From IMG/VR virus record IMGVR_UViG_3300044971_003100, positions 1 to 64,000 of that record: DNA of 64,000 nucleotides. One strand, 5' to 3'. Made by a program: the position numbers and the translations under genes. This DNA is from a virus. Shown piece after piece: positions 2,997-28,044 of the stretch (position 1 is the stretch's first letter; each line of letters begins with the position of its first letter). A model generated the notes under the pieces. That model was not told where the DNA came from and made no database searches. It saw only the letters and a program-made list of their open reading frames with translations.

Positions 2997-3005
2997 CTTA
3001 TACCA
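2997..3005 (-). promoter_or_regulatory. Extended -10 promoter (TGG TATAAG)
   Basis: Minus-strand TGG at 3005-3003 directly precedes TATAAG at 3002-2997. A TTGACA lies at 3022-3017, but only 14 bp away. Same motif type as at 3588, 6339, 7951 and 20798. Confidence 0.5.
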
Positions 3006-3054
3006 TCATCTCGTCCTGTCAAGCTAAGGTGAGCTTAATGGAACAATTCCTGTA

Positions 3055-3582
3055 ATGACGAAGACATTCTTAATCTCTGATACACATTTCGGGCATGGCG
3101 GCGTCTGCCGATTCACCAGGGACGACGGCTCCAAGCTCAGGCCCTGGGATGACGTAGATGAAATGAATGAAGCATTGATCGACAACTGGAACAACACCGT
3201 TAGCCCCAAGGATAAAGTTTACCACCTTGGAGACGTGGCTATTCCCAGGCGTGGACTGAAGTGTCTAGAAAGGCTGAATGGCAGGAAGATTCTAATCAGA
3301 GGAAATCATGATATTTTCAAGCTACAGGACTATGTGAAATATTTTGATGACATCAGAGGGTGTCATTACCTGGATCATTATGTCCTGACGCATATTCCTG
3401 TTCACACTTGTGGAGTCATCAGGTACAAGGGCAATATCCATGGACATTTACATTACCGACAAGTCTTGGATGAGAAAGATGAGCCCGATCTCAGATACAG
3501 ATGCGTATGCGTAGAACATACGGACTACAGGCCAATCGACTTTGAGCAAATCAGGTCTGAGATGGCAGTCAACGTGGACTGA
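3055..3582 (+). CDS. Calcineurin-like metallophosphoesterase
   Basis: 175 residues carrying the full set of metallophosphatase motifs: DTHFGH (residues 9-14), HLGDVA (about 58-63), RGNHD (about 81-85) and a late THIPVH and HGHLH. These Asp/His/Asn residues normally bind two metal ions that activate water to cleave phosphoesters. Close in size to single-domain phage phosphoesterases. The substrate cannot be told from sequence (cyclic nucleotide, nucleic acid or RNA end). It is the first plus-strand gene in the window, diverging from the gene at 2779, and an extended -10 promoter follows its stop. Confidence 0.92.
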   Translation: MTKTFLISDTHFGHGGVCRFTRDDGSKLRPWDDVDEMNEALIDNWNNTVSPKDKVYHLGDVAIPRRGLKCLERLNGRKILIRGNHDIFKLQDYVKYFDDIRGCHYLDHYVLTHIPVHTCGVIRYKGNIHGHLHYRQVLDEKDEPDLRYRCVCVEHTDYRPIDFEQIRSEMAVNVD

Positions 3583-3587
3583 CTTTG

Positions 3588-3596
3588 TGGTATACT
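3588..3596 (+). promoter_or_regulatory. Extended -10 promoter before the structured RNA region
   Basis: TGG (3588-3590) then TATACT (3591-3596) lies six bases after the phosphoesterase stop. No good -35. Transcription would start near 3603 and no long frame follows, so the transcript is expected to be non-coding. Confidence 0.55.
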
Positions 3597-3602
3597 GTTA
3601 GT

Positions 3603-4071
3603 GACAGAGGTTGGGCCACTGTCTGGTTACTTTTGTATCCGGTCACGCCCAATCCTTCTGTTAACCCCCCCACGCTGCTCTGTCGGCGGGGTGCAGTCAA
3701 CAGGAATGGGCACTGCGTCGATTCTGGATCGGAAATTTTCGATCGTTGTTGACCTGCGTGAAGTCCTGGGTTTCCAGGCCGGAGGGTTGATCACCTCCGC
3801 CCGTCTAGTCCACGGTTGAGCCCTCAACCCATTTGGCAAGCTCGACGGACTGCATACGGTTGACCAACCGTCCCGGACCCGGCAGGGCCCCTTAGGGAGA
3901 AGGTGCCCCTACGGATCGCAGGTTAGATCCGTTCAAACACCCTCTATGCTTAGCTCCAGGACGCTGGATGATGCACAAACAGGAGGGTCACTGCGTCTTG
4001 GTGTAAGGAACACGCCTGGCACATAGCCAGGAGATACCGCCCGATACGGTAAGACGCCCTGCCTGACTAAT
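3603..4071 (+). ncRNA. Candidate large structured non-coding RNA
   Basis: No convincing gene lies between 3583 and 4071, yet the stretch is packed with local hairpins: 3611-3616/3647-3652 with inner stem 3625-3630/3635-3640; 3727-3731/3740-3744; 3765-3769/3774-3778; 3780-3785/3794-3799; 3814-3819/3824-3829; 3856-3861/3866-3871; 3911-3917/3926-3932; 4001-4004/4010-4013; 4015-4020/4026-4031; 4035-4039/4047-4051. An extended -10 promoter sits just upstream and a tRNA gene just downstream. This arrangement recalls large ornate phage RNAs such as GOLLD and ROOL, which lie beside tRNAs; identity with them is only inferred. Alternative: decayed tRNA genes. Confidence 0.5.
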
Positions 4072-4145
4072 GGCTCAGTAGCTCAGTTGAATAGAGCAAC
4101 CGCCTTCTAAGCGGTCGGTCACAGGTTTGAGTCCTGTCTGAGTCG
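4072..4145 (+). tRNA. tRNA-Arg (anticodon TCT)
   Basis: 74-nt cloverleaf. Acceptor GGCTCAG pairs with CTGAGTC (one G-T), anticodon arm ACCGC-CTTCTAA-GCGGT gives TCT, T arm ACAGG-TTTGAGT-CCTGT. It reads AGA codons, which tRNA-carrying phages often supplement. No encoded CCA. Confidence 0.93.
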
Positions 4146-4146
4146 T

Positions 4147-4248
4147 CGCCCAGTCCGAACCAACTGGACAGGTCGGTACCTGGCTGATGCGTTGGACGCA
4201 ATGCTATATGACAGGACTACGATGCGGGTTCGATTCCCGTCTGGGCGC
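4147..4248 (+). tRNA. tRNA-like element, anticodon undetermined
   Basis: Acceptor CGCCCAG (4147-4153) pairs perfectly with CTGGGCG (4241-4247), and a normal T arm (GCGGG-TTCGATT-CCCGT) precedes it. A D-arm-like CCGA/TCGG with a long loop is possible. The middle is about 20 nt too long: CCTG near 4179 can pair with CAGG near 4212 as an anticodon stem, leaving a 29-nt loop with its own small hairpin. It may be a decayed tRNA, a tRNA carrying an insertion, or the 3' end of the structured RNA before it. Confidence 0.5.
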
Positions 4249-4321
4249 TGGTAATCTATGCTAGTTTGTCTGCAATGGCGTGGGCTATATTTATTGGGCC
4301 TTTAGGGCCTGGAAGCGTTCA

Positions 4322-4450
4322 ATGTTCCCGCCAATATATCTGCAAAATATCCACGACCCATCGGACCCAGAAGCCTGGAGCCAGCGCATTGAAGCATCCG
4401 CTTTCTGGGTTCAATTAAATCGTGGATACTATGAAACAAGGGGATTGTAA
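4322..4450 (+). CDS. Small hypothetical protein (42 aa)
   Basis: Starts MFPPIYLQNIHDPSDPEAWS after GGAAG. The rest (RIEASAFWVQLNRGYYETRGL) is an amphipathic helix with aromatic residues. The composition looks coding. The stretch from 4249 to 4577 otherwise holds only a possible promoter (TTGCTT 4517-4522, TAAGAT 4539-4544, spacing 16). Confidence 0.55.
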   Translation: MFPPIYLQNIHDPSDPEAWSQRIEASAFWVQLNRGYYETRGL

Positions 4451-4577
4451 CGTAATGCAACAGTTGCGCCTGATGTGGTGTGTCAATAAATTGTAACACT
4501 GTGGGCGGGCCGGGGGTTGCTTCTTTCCAGTATTCGTCTAAGATAGAAAAGCAGTGGGATACCCATTACCCGAAACC

Positions 4578-4976
4578 ATGGCCAGAGCAAGAGGAAGAGT
4601 TTCCATTCCCAAAGAAGACCGCATTTGGGACCTGAGGTGCCAAGGTTATGACTATGACAGCATAGCCAGGATTACAGACGTTTCGGCCAGCACTCCTGGC
4701 CGCGTTGTCAGACGTGTTATGCGTCGGCCACCCGTGAGCGTCGATCCAGTCAAGCGTGGACGCAAGCAAGGCTTTTTTAGCGATCGTCAGATTTACGAAA
4801 TTCGCCTAAGGGCCCGCTTGGGTGAAAAGCAGGGTGACATTGCCAAAGAGTTTGGCGTTGACACCACAGCGATCAACAAGATTTGTTGTTTCAGAACATA
4901 CATGGAGCCCTGTCAGGATCAAACCGTCGAGGGCTATAAGTTCAACTTCGGAAACAGGCTAACTAGGGTCGCTTAG
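4578..4976 (+). CDS. Double helix-turn-helix DNA-binding protein
   Basis: 132 residues from the ATG at 4578; a GTG at 4554 in frame is possible. Two helix-turn-helix-like units: IWDLRCQGYDYDSIARITDV in the first third and YEIRLRARLGEKQGDIAKEF followed by GVDTTAINKIC in the second. The second matches the repeat common in HNH-associated and phage regulatory proteins. The N-terminus is very basic (MARARGRVSIPKEDR). It probably binds DNA, perhaps as a regulator. Its end overlaps the convergent gene at 4973 by 4 bp. Confidence 0.75.
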   Translation: MARARGRVSIPKEDRIWDLRCQGYDYDSIARITDVSASTPGRVVRRVMRRPPVSVDPVKRGRKQGFFSDRQIYEIRLRARLGEKQGDIAKEFGVDTTAINKICCFRTYMEPCQDQTVEGYKFNFGNRLTRVA

Positions 4977-5347
4977 ATAAAAGCGTATTCTGCCCTGTAG
5001 CTCTCTTCTTCGGAAGCCCAATCATAAAGGCCCAAGTCGGTGAAAAGCTCTCTTGGGCCAATTTTTTCGACCAGTTGCCGAAGGCACGGAAATACCATCC
5101 AATTGAATTCGGCATATGCCAATCCGAACATTCCCTTTTCCGCGAGGAAAAAGCTGTCGGTTGTATACTTGTTGCGATGAACGCGAATGATTGCCGGATA
5201 GCAAACCTTGTTTTGTGATACGAATTTCCTGGCAGCCGTAACACCTTGGATGCCGTTGCCATCGATTTGATGGGTTGCGACAAAGCTCAGGATGCGTTGT
5301 CCCTGCAGGCGGCGGCGGCTTGAACGTGGCTTGATTGGACGGGGCAT
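4973..5347 (-). CDS. Hypothetical protein (124 aa)
   Basis: Basic N-terminus (MPRPIKPRSSRRRLQGQR), then a likely alpha/beta domain with FGLAYAEFNWMVFPCLRQLVEKIG and a YDWASEEESYRAEYAFI tail. No family recognised. Convergent with the helix-turn-helix gene. Confidence 0.75.
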   Translation of the reverse strand: MPRPIKPRSSRRRLQGQRILSFVATHQIDGNGIQGVTAARKFVSQNKVCYPAIIRVHRNKYTTDSFFLAEKGMFGLAYAEFNWMVFPCLRQLVEKIGPRELFTDLGLYDWASEEESYRAEYAFI

Positions 5348-5409: not shown

Positions 5410-5502
5410 ATGGGACGAGGATATTGCAAAGACGACCCGGATCGGCTACAGTGTGACGGTTGCTGCTCCCTTAGCAATCTGGTGAATGCAGTCGACTCAT
5501 AA
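5410..5502 (+). CDS. Cysteine-rich 30-residue ORF running into tRNA-Met
   Basis: AGGAG lies 3 nt before the ATG at 5410. The product MGRGYCKDDPDRLQCDGCCS continues for ten more residues, with four cysteines. The stop (TAA 5500-5502) is formed by the anticodon loop region of tRNA-Met. The ribosome site and composition suggest a gene or gene remnant interrupted by the tRNA; chance is possible. Confidence 0.35.
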   Translation: MGRGYCKDDPDRLQCDGCCSLSNLVNAVDS

Positions 5503-5537
5503 TCGACCTTAGGCGTGTTCGATCCACGCAGGGAGCA
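5465..5537 (+). tRNA. tRNA-Met (anticodon CAT)
   Basis: 73-nt cloverleaf. Acceptor GCTCCCT/AGGGAGC, anticodon arm GTCGA-CTCATAA-TCGAC, T arm GCGTG-TTCGATC-CACGC, discriminator A. CAT could be elongator Met, initiator Met or Ile with modified C34; these cannot be told apart here. The first acceptor pair is G-C, unlike typical bacterial initiators. Confidence 0.93.
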
Positions 5538-5560
5538 CTTATTCGTTATAATGTGGATGT

Positions 5561-5634
5561 GCCCGGTTAGCCCAGCGGAAGAGGCAACGGATTTAAGCTC
5601 CGTTCAGCGTTGAGTTCGAATCTCACACCGGGTA
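5561..5634 (+). tRNA. tRNA-Leu (anticodon TAA) with short variable loop
   Basis: 74-nt cloverleaf. Acceptor GCCCGGT/ACCGGGT, anticodon arm ACGGA-TTTAAGC-TCCGT giving TAA, T arm TGAG-TTCGAAT-CTCA, discriminator A. Bacterial tRNA-Leu normally has a long variable arm; here it is about 7 nt. A TATAAT at 5547-5552 would start transcription just before the tRNA. Its last 12 bases overlap the antisense HNH gene. Confidence 0.88.
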
Positions 5635-5961
5635 TTTCAATTCGACCAATCCAGCGTGCAGCAATCTGTGGCAAACCGCACACAGTGCAACGCACTTGTT
5701 AATCTCTTGCACCAGTTTTTCATACCCAACTTTTCTCAGAGCGGTAGATACCGTAAACTCTTTACCTGTCGGATCAACATGATGTAGATCCATGGCTGCT
5801 GGGGGAAATGTCTGCTTACAGATCAGACATGGTCCACTCTTTGCTTCAAGTATTATCTGCTTTTTTGTCTTGAAGTATGGCAACGAGCTTTTAGTACGGC
5901 GATGGCGCCTTGCCCATTCAGTCTGATATTTCCTGTTCTTCTCCCTGTCTTTATACGGCAC
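5623..5961 (-). CDS. HNH endonuclease-like protein
   Basis: 112 residues. A basic N-terminus (YKDREKNRKYQTEWARRHRR) precedes a zinc-held HNH core: CLICKQTFPPAAMDLHHVDP, then CVALCAVCHRLLHAG. The four cysteines would bind a structural zinc and the HH pair plus late His form the nuclease site. Such free-standing nucleases are common homing or packaging-associated enzymes in phages. Its 3' end overlaps tRNA-Leu on the other strand, consistent with insertion beside a tRNA. Confidence 0.85.
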   Translation of the reverse strand: MPYKDREKNRKYQTEWARRHRRTKSSLPYFKTKKQIILEAKSGPCLICKQTFPPAAMDLHHVDPTGKEFTVSTALRKVGYEKLVQEINKCVALCAVCHRLLHAGLVELKYPV

Positions 5962-7860: not shown

Positions 7861-7950
7861 GTGTCTCCTTAACTGGGTTAAAGAGCGTTCCTTCGGTGAT
7901 TACCTACTTCCGTCGTTTGCGGTTAAATACGCAAAAGATGAACGTACTTT

Positions 7951-27245: not shown

Positions 27246-27650
27246 TTATACGGACACGTGGTGAATGATTACGACCCATTCCGAATTAGCCTTGGCTGCC
27301 TTTTGCCATTCAATTGACAGCTTTGGTATTACGCTGACCCGATCATCGATCCACAGGATCCCCTGGGCGGCATCCATGAATGCCCCAGCTATGTTGTCCG
27401 TGTCTCCTCGACCTTCACCCCTGACGATCAGCTTCAGTGACACAGGACCCTCCAAGGGGCCGTACTCCCACTGCTCACGAATCAGCTTACGCATCTCCGC
27501 TTGCGCTAGCTTGTAGGCTGGCGGCATGAATGCGTGACCAGTTCTAGTTAACCTTGGACGTGCCTTTGAAAACAACGGCATCCTGATGACTAATACGTGA
27601 TCAGCCGAATCTATCGCCGGAAGTGTGCAGTTCAAGTACTTCTGCGTCAT
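27246..27650 (-). CDS. RusA-like Holliday junction resolvase
   Basis: 134 residues. RMPLFSKARPRLTRTGHAF is the RusA N-terminal strand and basic patch; GEGRGDTDNIAGAFMDAAQG and ILWIDDRVSVIPKLSIEW carry the conserved Asp residues (D-DN, D, DD). It would cut branched DNA during recombination or packaging. The start is uncertain; upstream codons overlap the gene at 27601. Confidence 0.85.
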   Translation of the reverse strand: MTQKYLNCTLPAIDSADHVLVIRMPLFSKARPRLTRTGHAFMPPAYKLAQAEMRKLIREQWEYGPLEGPVSLKLIVRGEGRGDTDNIAGAFMDAAQGILWIDDRVSVIPKLSIEWQKAAKANSEWVVIIHHVSV

Positions 27651-28044
27651 CTGAGCTAAGTGCATCCACTCGACGCCTGTCTTGAGTATTCCAGAATTCG
27701 GCCCAGCTCTTCATATATGGCTCAATATCAGAGCCATCCCACTGGTCAACCGGCGCCGGTTGAGCTGCTTTTGTGTTGCCATCTCTGGAGATGGATATTT
27801 TCAACAGAACGAGATAGCCAATCAGATCCTGCAAGACATCCTCATCTGTTGCCAGCAAACCAGCCCCCTTAGCAATGCGCGACAGTTTGTCATCTATCCT
27901 GACGCACAACTGCTCCGAAGTGTCCGCCTTGCTGAAGATCCTGGATGGATTCAGCGCAGAATCTCCGTACTTCTTGTTCTTTTGCAGCAACAAGTTTTTA
28001 ACATCATCGCAAACCCTAGAGATTTGCTGTTGTGTATCAGTCAT
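27601..28044 (-). CDS. Nucleotide-modification-associated domain 1-like protein
   Basis: 147 residues. LLLQKNKKYGDSALNPSRIF, then SKADTSEQLCVRIDDKLSRI and EDVLQDLIGYLVLLKI match the DUF1599/nucleotide modification associated domain family, all helical, with MazG-like features. It may act in nucleotide pools; function unknown. The Glu/Lys/Asp pattern typical of the family is present. Confidence 0.8.
   Translation of the reverse strand: MTDTQQQISRVCDDVKNLLLQKNKKYGDSALNPSRIFSKADTSEQLCVRIDDKLSRIAKGAGLLATDEDVLQDLIGYLVLLKISISRDGNTKAAQPAPVDQWDGSDIEPYMKSWAEFWNTQDRRRVDALSSDDAEVLELHTSGDRFG

Follow-up and report, generated by a model that had tools for sequence, protein, structure and literature searches.

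Positions 3588-4248 of the window, i.e. of the whole stretch of 64,000 nucleotides that was analysed (IMG/VR record IMGVR_UViG_3300044971_003100), form a non-coding stretch that is headed by a promoter and strongly folded; related stretches occur in dozens of uncultured phages. The locus is almost certainly a string of separate RNA modules, and it consists of modules exchanged between phages rather than of a single ornate RNA. We propose, with a probability of roughly 0.55, that it is a multi-target RNA anti-defence array made up of RNA mimics, namely an abiF antitoxin, tRNA-like elements and further modules.

Anatomy of the array and its relatives

The stretch begins with the extended -10 element TGG TATACT (3588-3596, plus strand), which was read from the sequence, whose spacing to the first module is kept in relatives, and from which a transcription start near 3603 is predicted. 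A general promoter scan did not list this site and, therefore, the element is weak by itself; in the window, the gap between the hexamer and the first module is 6 nt by our reading. Among the 33 arrays with a placeable first module A or C, a -10-like hexamer (agreeing with TATAAT at four or more of its six positions) ends 6, 7 or 9 nt 5' of that module in all 33, compared with a rate of 21% in shuffled sequence, and 24 of the 33 have TG at the extended position; these cases are not independent because the upstream sequences fall into related groups, and the other eight of the 41 arrays described below, including that of the window, lie outside the count. The promoter at the head of the stretch, which the initial annotation had reported, is thus found in register across the arrays examined.

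The longest open reading frame inside 3597-4070 encodes at most 72 amino acids, and none larger occurs before the tRNA-Arg gene at 4071. The same segment has a folding energy of -199.2 kcal/mol (z -3.58), which was equalled by 0 of 100 dinucleotide shuffles, in agreement with the initial description of about 480 nt without a gene and densely folded. Moreover, because modules are inserted, deleted and reordered between relatives, a conserved reading frame is unlikely, and these sequence comparisons argue against one in the window stretch.

All modules of the window array lie on the plus strand. Module A (3603-3658) is a hairpin with an AGA bulge and an exchangeable tip (fold z -4.13). It is followed by module B (3670-3760), in which a hairpin with the loop TGCTCTGTCG precedes a second stem-loop; the stem of the latter is seen in the fold and by eye, and its inner part is swapped between arrays. 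Module D (3761-3802) comprises two short hairpins, module E (3803-3855) a hairpin GTCC..GGAC (fold z -2.04), and module F (3856-3878) the small hairpin ACGGTTGACCAACCG. Module G (3880-3936) comprises two hairpins with a weak fold (z -1.34) and was recognised by profile matches; a regular expression for G gave 3 of 41 arrays but missed the window's own copy. Next are module H (3936-3992), a candidate abiF-type antitoxin RNA with an enlarged apical hairpin, and module I (3993-4058), a tRNA-like element with the loop CACATAG. The array ends with tRNA-Arg (UCU; 4071-4147), called by ARAGORN and Rfam, and T2 (4147-4248), a second tRNA-like element that has relatives in other arrays; T2 and the tRNA-Arg call overlap by one base, 4147. 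The succession of a tRNA-Arg and a tRNA-like element had been noted before, and T2 indeed folds as a cloverleaf; module I had not been named.

Relatives were collected among contigs with the neighbouring phosphoesterase gene and among contigs with a 14-nt pattern, and compared by nhmmer; they range from near-identical (L002, L003) to distant (L108, L038). The matches listed from the 14-nt pattern scan of viral contigs were mostly unrelated, relatives included, and a pattern for the most constant hairpin (loop GCTCTGTCG) found 52 viral stretches. In total, 62 loci were pooled (L001 being that of the window), and 41 non-redundant arrays were left after dropping copies more than 95% alike. Annotated with profiles and regular expressions, these 41 arrays have 33 distinct module orders, a number that is approximate because mechanical annotation misses divergent copies, such as the window's G, and adds a few false ones; for instance, an A was placed beyond the end of L207. 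All 41 arrays contain module B, as follows from the way they were selected. Module H occurs in 36 of them, module A in 31 and module I in 27; D and C each occur in 21. Less common are E (11 arrays), T2 (eight) and F (four), and other modules are found in fewer. L299 has a tandem pair of module C (107-156). A tRNA-like element holds the last or next-to-last place in 34 of the 41 arrays, and the modules of any one array are all on one strand. Because the -10 element is in register and a tRNA-like element lies near the end, the string looks like one transcription unit, with its first bead at or near the predicted transcription start.

The array is neighboured by a phosphoesterase gene (3055-3582, plus strand; phrog_547, nearest solved relative 1xm7). 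In 38 of the 52 viral stretches of the hairpin-pattern scan, the array has a phosphoesterase gene next to it on the same strand, upstream in window-like phages and downstream in others, and several of the 14 stretches without the gene are cut short. In relatives, the gene is linked to the array, and it may or may not take part in array function.

Module H and orphan abiF RNAs in phages

The abiF RNA is the antitoxin of AbiF, a HEPN ribonuclease. In the window, module H aligns with the whole abiF RNA model RF03085 (model positions 1-37, window 3940-3988) at 16.5 bits (E 0.55), below the gathering cut-off of 37 bits, and the window's whole record has no abiF match at E<=0.01. By alignment and fold, it has the abiF architecture, i.e. 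a 6-bp outer stem, one unpaired base, a 3-bp inner stem and a 3' internal loop containing CAAA. Among 20 loci searched, three carry an abiF RNA above gathering (L108, 55.3 bits; L235, 49.9 bits; the isolate S-CREM1, 52.2 bits), and the copies in L108 and L235 occupy the same array slot as module H. Several of the 20 loci have a form with an enlarged apical hairpin that scores below gathering, and the window copy is of this form. Because it scores 16.5 bits while copies in the same slot pass the cut-off, we refer to the window copy as a divergent abiF-type RNA, and module H very probably belongs to this type.

Module H has both stems and the CAAA stretch in common with abiF RNA, and the flanks are often alike (AACACCC...GGGTCACT around module H, AACA..ACCCGCC...GGGTTACT in cyanobacterial plasmids). 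It differs in its enlarged apical hairpin and low score, and phage copies differ in that they were found without an AbiF gene and set among other modules. In an Acinetobacter plasmid (L375), an AbiF-linked RNA of 33.1 bits has an enlarged apical hairpin like that of the window copy. A GACG tetraloop, seen in the folds and otherwise by eye, is present both in the enlarged apical hairpin of H and in T2, where it lies in the middle arm.

When 12 records were searched, abiF RNA scored above the Rfam cut-off in five complete isolate genomes (Acj61, 58.0 bits; S-SZBM1, 55.7; S-CREM1, 52.2; Roseobacter phage CRP-143, 50.8; S-SRM01, 49.3); the cut-off was not passed in the window's record, S-EIV1, S-PM2, S-RIM32, S-RIM8, DSL-LC03 and sk1. 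Going by the title of a cited study, Lactococcus phage sk1 reportedly protects against AbiF, and no abiF RNA was found in it; its record (L401) has two Rfam tRNAs at 27505-27717 that are absent from its feature table. The array of L218 led to phage isolates by blastn. The same comparison of the window array with annotated phages and plasmids gave only tRNA-Arg or chance matches, and the arrays of L241 and L215 gave no phage match.

In contigs of T4-like cyanophages, module A, abiF RNA and tRNA-like elements sit between true tRNA genes, and the model of module A matches 15 of 20 phage records. Between tRNA-Pro and tRNA-Ala, S-SZBM1 carries, as judged by eye, an I-type hairpin, an L-type module, a tRNA-like element, module A and abiF RNA, and a largely unannotated gap in S-EIV1 holds module A, an enlarged H and two tRNA-like elements (order by eye). 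A copy of module A in S-CREM1 (L382, 1221-1275) lies just before tRNA-Ala, about 145 kb from the tRNA cluster with the abiF RNA. The abiF RNA itself also occurs with a single tRNA-like element (L282). In Acinetobacter phage Acj61 (L403, 1195-1235), a solitary abiF RNA lies in a gap beside a GIY-YIG homing endonuclease gene and is followed by a short T-run, and in Roseobacter phage CRP-143 (L404, 1202-1239) an abiF RNA separates the scaffolding gene from the capsid gene. At least 120 viral stretches were found with the abiF core, which is therefore common in viral contigs.

The AbiF domain Abi_2 (PF07751) was found in none of 46 records (the window, 43 other array contigs, S-CREM1 and S-EIV1), in none of 40 more contigs drawn from among those carrying the abiF core and in none of nine other phage records, i.e. 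in 0 of 95 records, many of which are fragments and not all of which carry abiF RNA. By comparison, the same search matched in four of five bacterial genomes. Complete isolate genomes are the stronger test, since contig fragments could hide a gene. The anatomy of the array and the state of its abiF RNA were computed: phage abiF RNA is an orphan, without a neighbouring AbiF toxin gene.

In bacteria, the RNA and the gene can occur together. In Picosynechococcus and Synechocystis plasmids (L371, L384, L385, L387), AbiF has the RNA just upstream, at 25.2-29.7 bits and thus below the cut-off; of six cyanobacterial AbiF loci that were read, L383 and L386 have no abiF match at E<=3. A Desulfuromonadaceae contig has an abiF RNA of 61.9 bits directly before a gene matching annotated Abi family proteins, and its 24-nt core is identical to the core of phage copies such as that of S-SZBM1. 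Directly after an AbiF-like gene in L260 lies an int-alpA RNA (4344-4415; RF02996, 42.4 bits).

tRNA-like elements and selection on RNA structure

Covariation was assessed in sets of sequences chosen by motif, with structures that we named, so that invariant loop bases were built in and variable stem positions were not; the pair counts cover modules A, B, H and I. In module A, 100% of 170 cells are paired compared with 87.4% after shuffling; in the first hairpin of module B, the corresponding values are 98.0% and 78.9%, and in module I 95.8% of 313 cells and 83.6% (17 distinct sequences in each case). Both partners have changed in 5 of the 10 pairs of A, in 5 of the 6 of B and in 11 of the 20 of I. 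Sliding the partner strands in A, B and I lowers pairing to 23-56%. For module H, counted within profile matches, the outer stem is 80.5% paired compared with 64.3% after shuffling (35 distinct stems); the inner stem has five distinct versions, all paired, and 80 of 2000 shuffles were as good. Covarying pairs among homologues of A, B, H and I bear out the earlier suggestion that a structured RNA is under selection beside the tRNA genes.

The acceptor, D, anticodon and T helices of a tRNA are present in module I, where all four covary, and in T2 by its fold. An RNAalifold consensus for module I has the D, anticodon and T stems and lacks the acceptor stem, and the window copy folded alone adopts a different minimum-energy fold. 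The cloverleaf of T2 is of modest stability (z -1.99; 8 of 200 shuffles were as good) and keeps the acceptor, D and T arms, whereas its middle arm is a long hairpin that replaces the anticodon arm. ARAGORN calls neither element in the window, yet it calls module I of several relatives as tRNA-Ile or tRNA-Met; likewise, in the long array of L216 Rfam identifies module I as a tRNA (32.6 bits), besides six sub-threshold matches.

Decoding tRNAs carry U33. Neither I nor T2 has U33 with a 7-nt decoding anticodon loop: in most copies of module I the loop is CANATAG, with A at position 33, and in others it is CATGG or a long hairpin, as in L048 (5695-5794). In some arrays, module A has the middle hairpin of module I at its tip. 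We infer that the tRNA-like beads can resemble a tRNA to processing enzymes or nucleases and are unlikely to decode. The possibility that the stretch is no more than several decayed tRNAs, which had been raised at the outset, does not fit these data: the tRNA-like elements number two, and in module I, the one whose pairs were counted, compensatory changes preserve the stems.

Function of the array and alternative explanations

The anti-defence array would work as follows. A sigma-70-type extended -10 promoter heads a string of modules that fold separately, and tRNA-like elements usually close the string; upon infection, the array would be transcribed and tRNA-processing enzymes would trim it at the tRNA-like elements. 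The abiF-type module would bind host AbiF and hold it inactive once infection upsets the host's antitoxin supply, and the tRNA-like and other modules would likewise act as bait for, or inhibitors of, tRNA-cutting or other RNA-binding defence proteins. Selection in an arms race would account for the gain, loss and swapping of modules.

Module H and its relatives are orphan copies in phages of a defence system's RNA, as a decoy would be. Given an abiF RNA in a phage without AbiF, use as a decoy is the simplest reading; moreover, the shuffling of many different beads, some of them tRNA-like, suits a set of decoys against varying host nucleases. Bacterial abiF RNA is described as neutralising AbiF in trans through direct binding, for which the stem is needed (PMC12373285), and by analogy module H would probably neutralise AbiF. 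For the other modules, we infer function with more reserve. That most of them are also decoys is a suggestion to which we give slightly less than even odds, and the extension that the beads each imitate the partner RNA of a distinct host defence enzyme, with modules A to G, K and L being antitoxin or guide RNAs of undiscovered systems, is more tentative still. Eight cyanobacterial plasmids, searched for a cellular source of A, B or C, gave only noise of 10-13.5 bits; in two phages, model A matched in both, and the matches were otherwise noise of the same 10-13.5 bits. Model A had no match in 297 genomes of one phylum, in a search run without a positive control.

There are precedents for phage RNAs that imitate defence RNAs. 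An RNA of phage PhiTE that imitates the ToxI antitoxin is reported to defeat ToxIN (PMC3475682); like module H, this pseudo-ToxI mimics the RNA antitoxin of an abortive-infection system, but as described there it has one target and consists of repeats of one unit, whereas the window array has many different modules and concerns another toxin family. Similarly, phage RNAs imitating CRISPR repeats (Racr) are reported to block CRISPR and are orphan defence-system RNAs often located just downstream of a predicted promoter (PMC10651486); according to this source they are solitary CRISPR-repeat units, whereas the window array has no CRISPR-type match in Rfam. If the proposal is true, the array would be an RNA-only counter-defence locus that disarms several defences at once, in contrast to the known phage RNA inhibitors of single systems (ToxIN, CRISPR); the other modules would be ready probes for RNA-controlled defence enzymes, and, if each bead does copy a different defence RNA, reading arrays would reveal undiscovered defence systems. 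Moreover, AbiF has been described as ancestral to Cas13 (PMC12737573), so that the array would bear on the arms race in which that lineage takes part. Among the matches listed for open-licence PMC papers, none described such an array, its shuffling or the anti-defence reading, and all three are apparently unreported; the abiF RNA of S-CREM1 is already known (PMC9964418; repeated in PMC12197685).

Alternatively, the modules could be a cluster of small RNAs and tRNA-like elements that regulates host or phage messages or aids translation, is transcribed and processed jointly with tRNAs, and has recruited the abiF-like module for a role unrelated to a toxin. Their position between true tRNA genes in T4-like cyanophages fits this explanation, as does the tRNA cluster of S-CREM1, in which manA and wcaG RNAs, structured RNAs of T4-like cyanophages that have been proposed as cis-regulators (PMC2864571), lie together with the abiF RNA; these belong to other families and have no match in the window. 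Fast shuffling, however, is unlike a stable regulator, only one module has a counterpart known from bacteria, which is an antitoxin RNA, and a module I that lacks U33 and whose loop can be replaced by a hairpin speaks against decoding. We therefore regard a regulatory or translational cluster as unlikely.

GOLLD and ROOL are structured phage RNAs found near tRNAs, and the initial annotation had taken the stretch for an RNA of this type or for a new class. At gathering, Rfam 15 identifies three tRNAs and one glutamine riboswitch in the whole window and nothing else, and at E<=10 it gives the tRNA and a single chance match in 3000-5000; thus, GOLLD, ROOL, HEARO and tmRNA, none of which is matched, are unsupported, and ARAGORN reported no tmRNA within the window. 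One large ornate RNA with exchangeable peripheral domains, serving as a scaffold or cage like GOLLD or ROOL, would explain several hundred nucleotides of dense structure beside tRNAs in phages and the large z-score of the fold. Unlike the one fold of GOLLD or ROOL, the array is modular and shuffled, with no constant core order in the 33 orders, and single modules occur alone, as do the abiF RNA with one tRNA-like element in L282 and the abiF RNA by itself in Acj61. On the basis of the Rfam result and the shuffling, we rejected a single large RNA, which is highly improbable; the proposal of a new class holds for a new RNA array, in the form of a shuffled string of modules and not of one ornate RNA.

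Finally, that the modules act as DNA, i.e. as mobile or recombination elements in which the hairpins are important in single-stranded DNA and the RNA-like look is secondary, would be in line with the quick turnover of order and content and with the tandem C of L299, but is scarcely credible given compensatory changes that include some G-U pairs, tRNA-like folds, a single strand per array and the -10 element in register.

Beyond the array, the window contains a glutamine riboswitch at 7882-7946 on the minus strand (RF01739, 51.3 bits), an element reported from other cyanophages as well (PMC9964418). Two further tRNA genes, tRNA-Met and tRNA-Leu, are located at 5465-5538 and 5560-5635.
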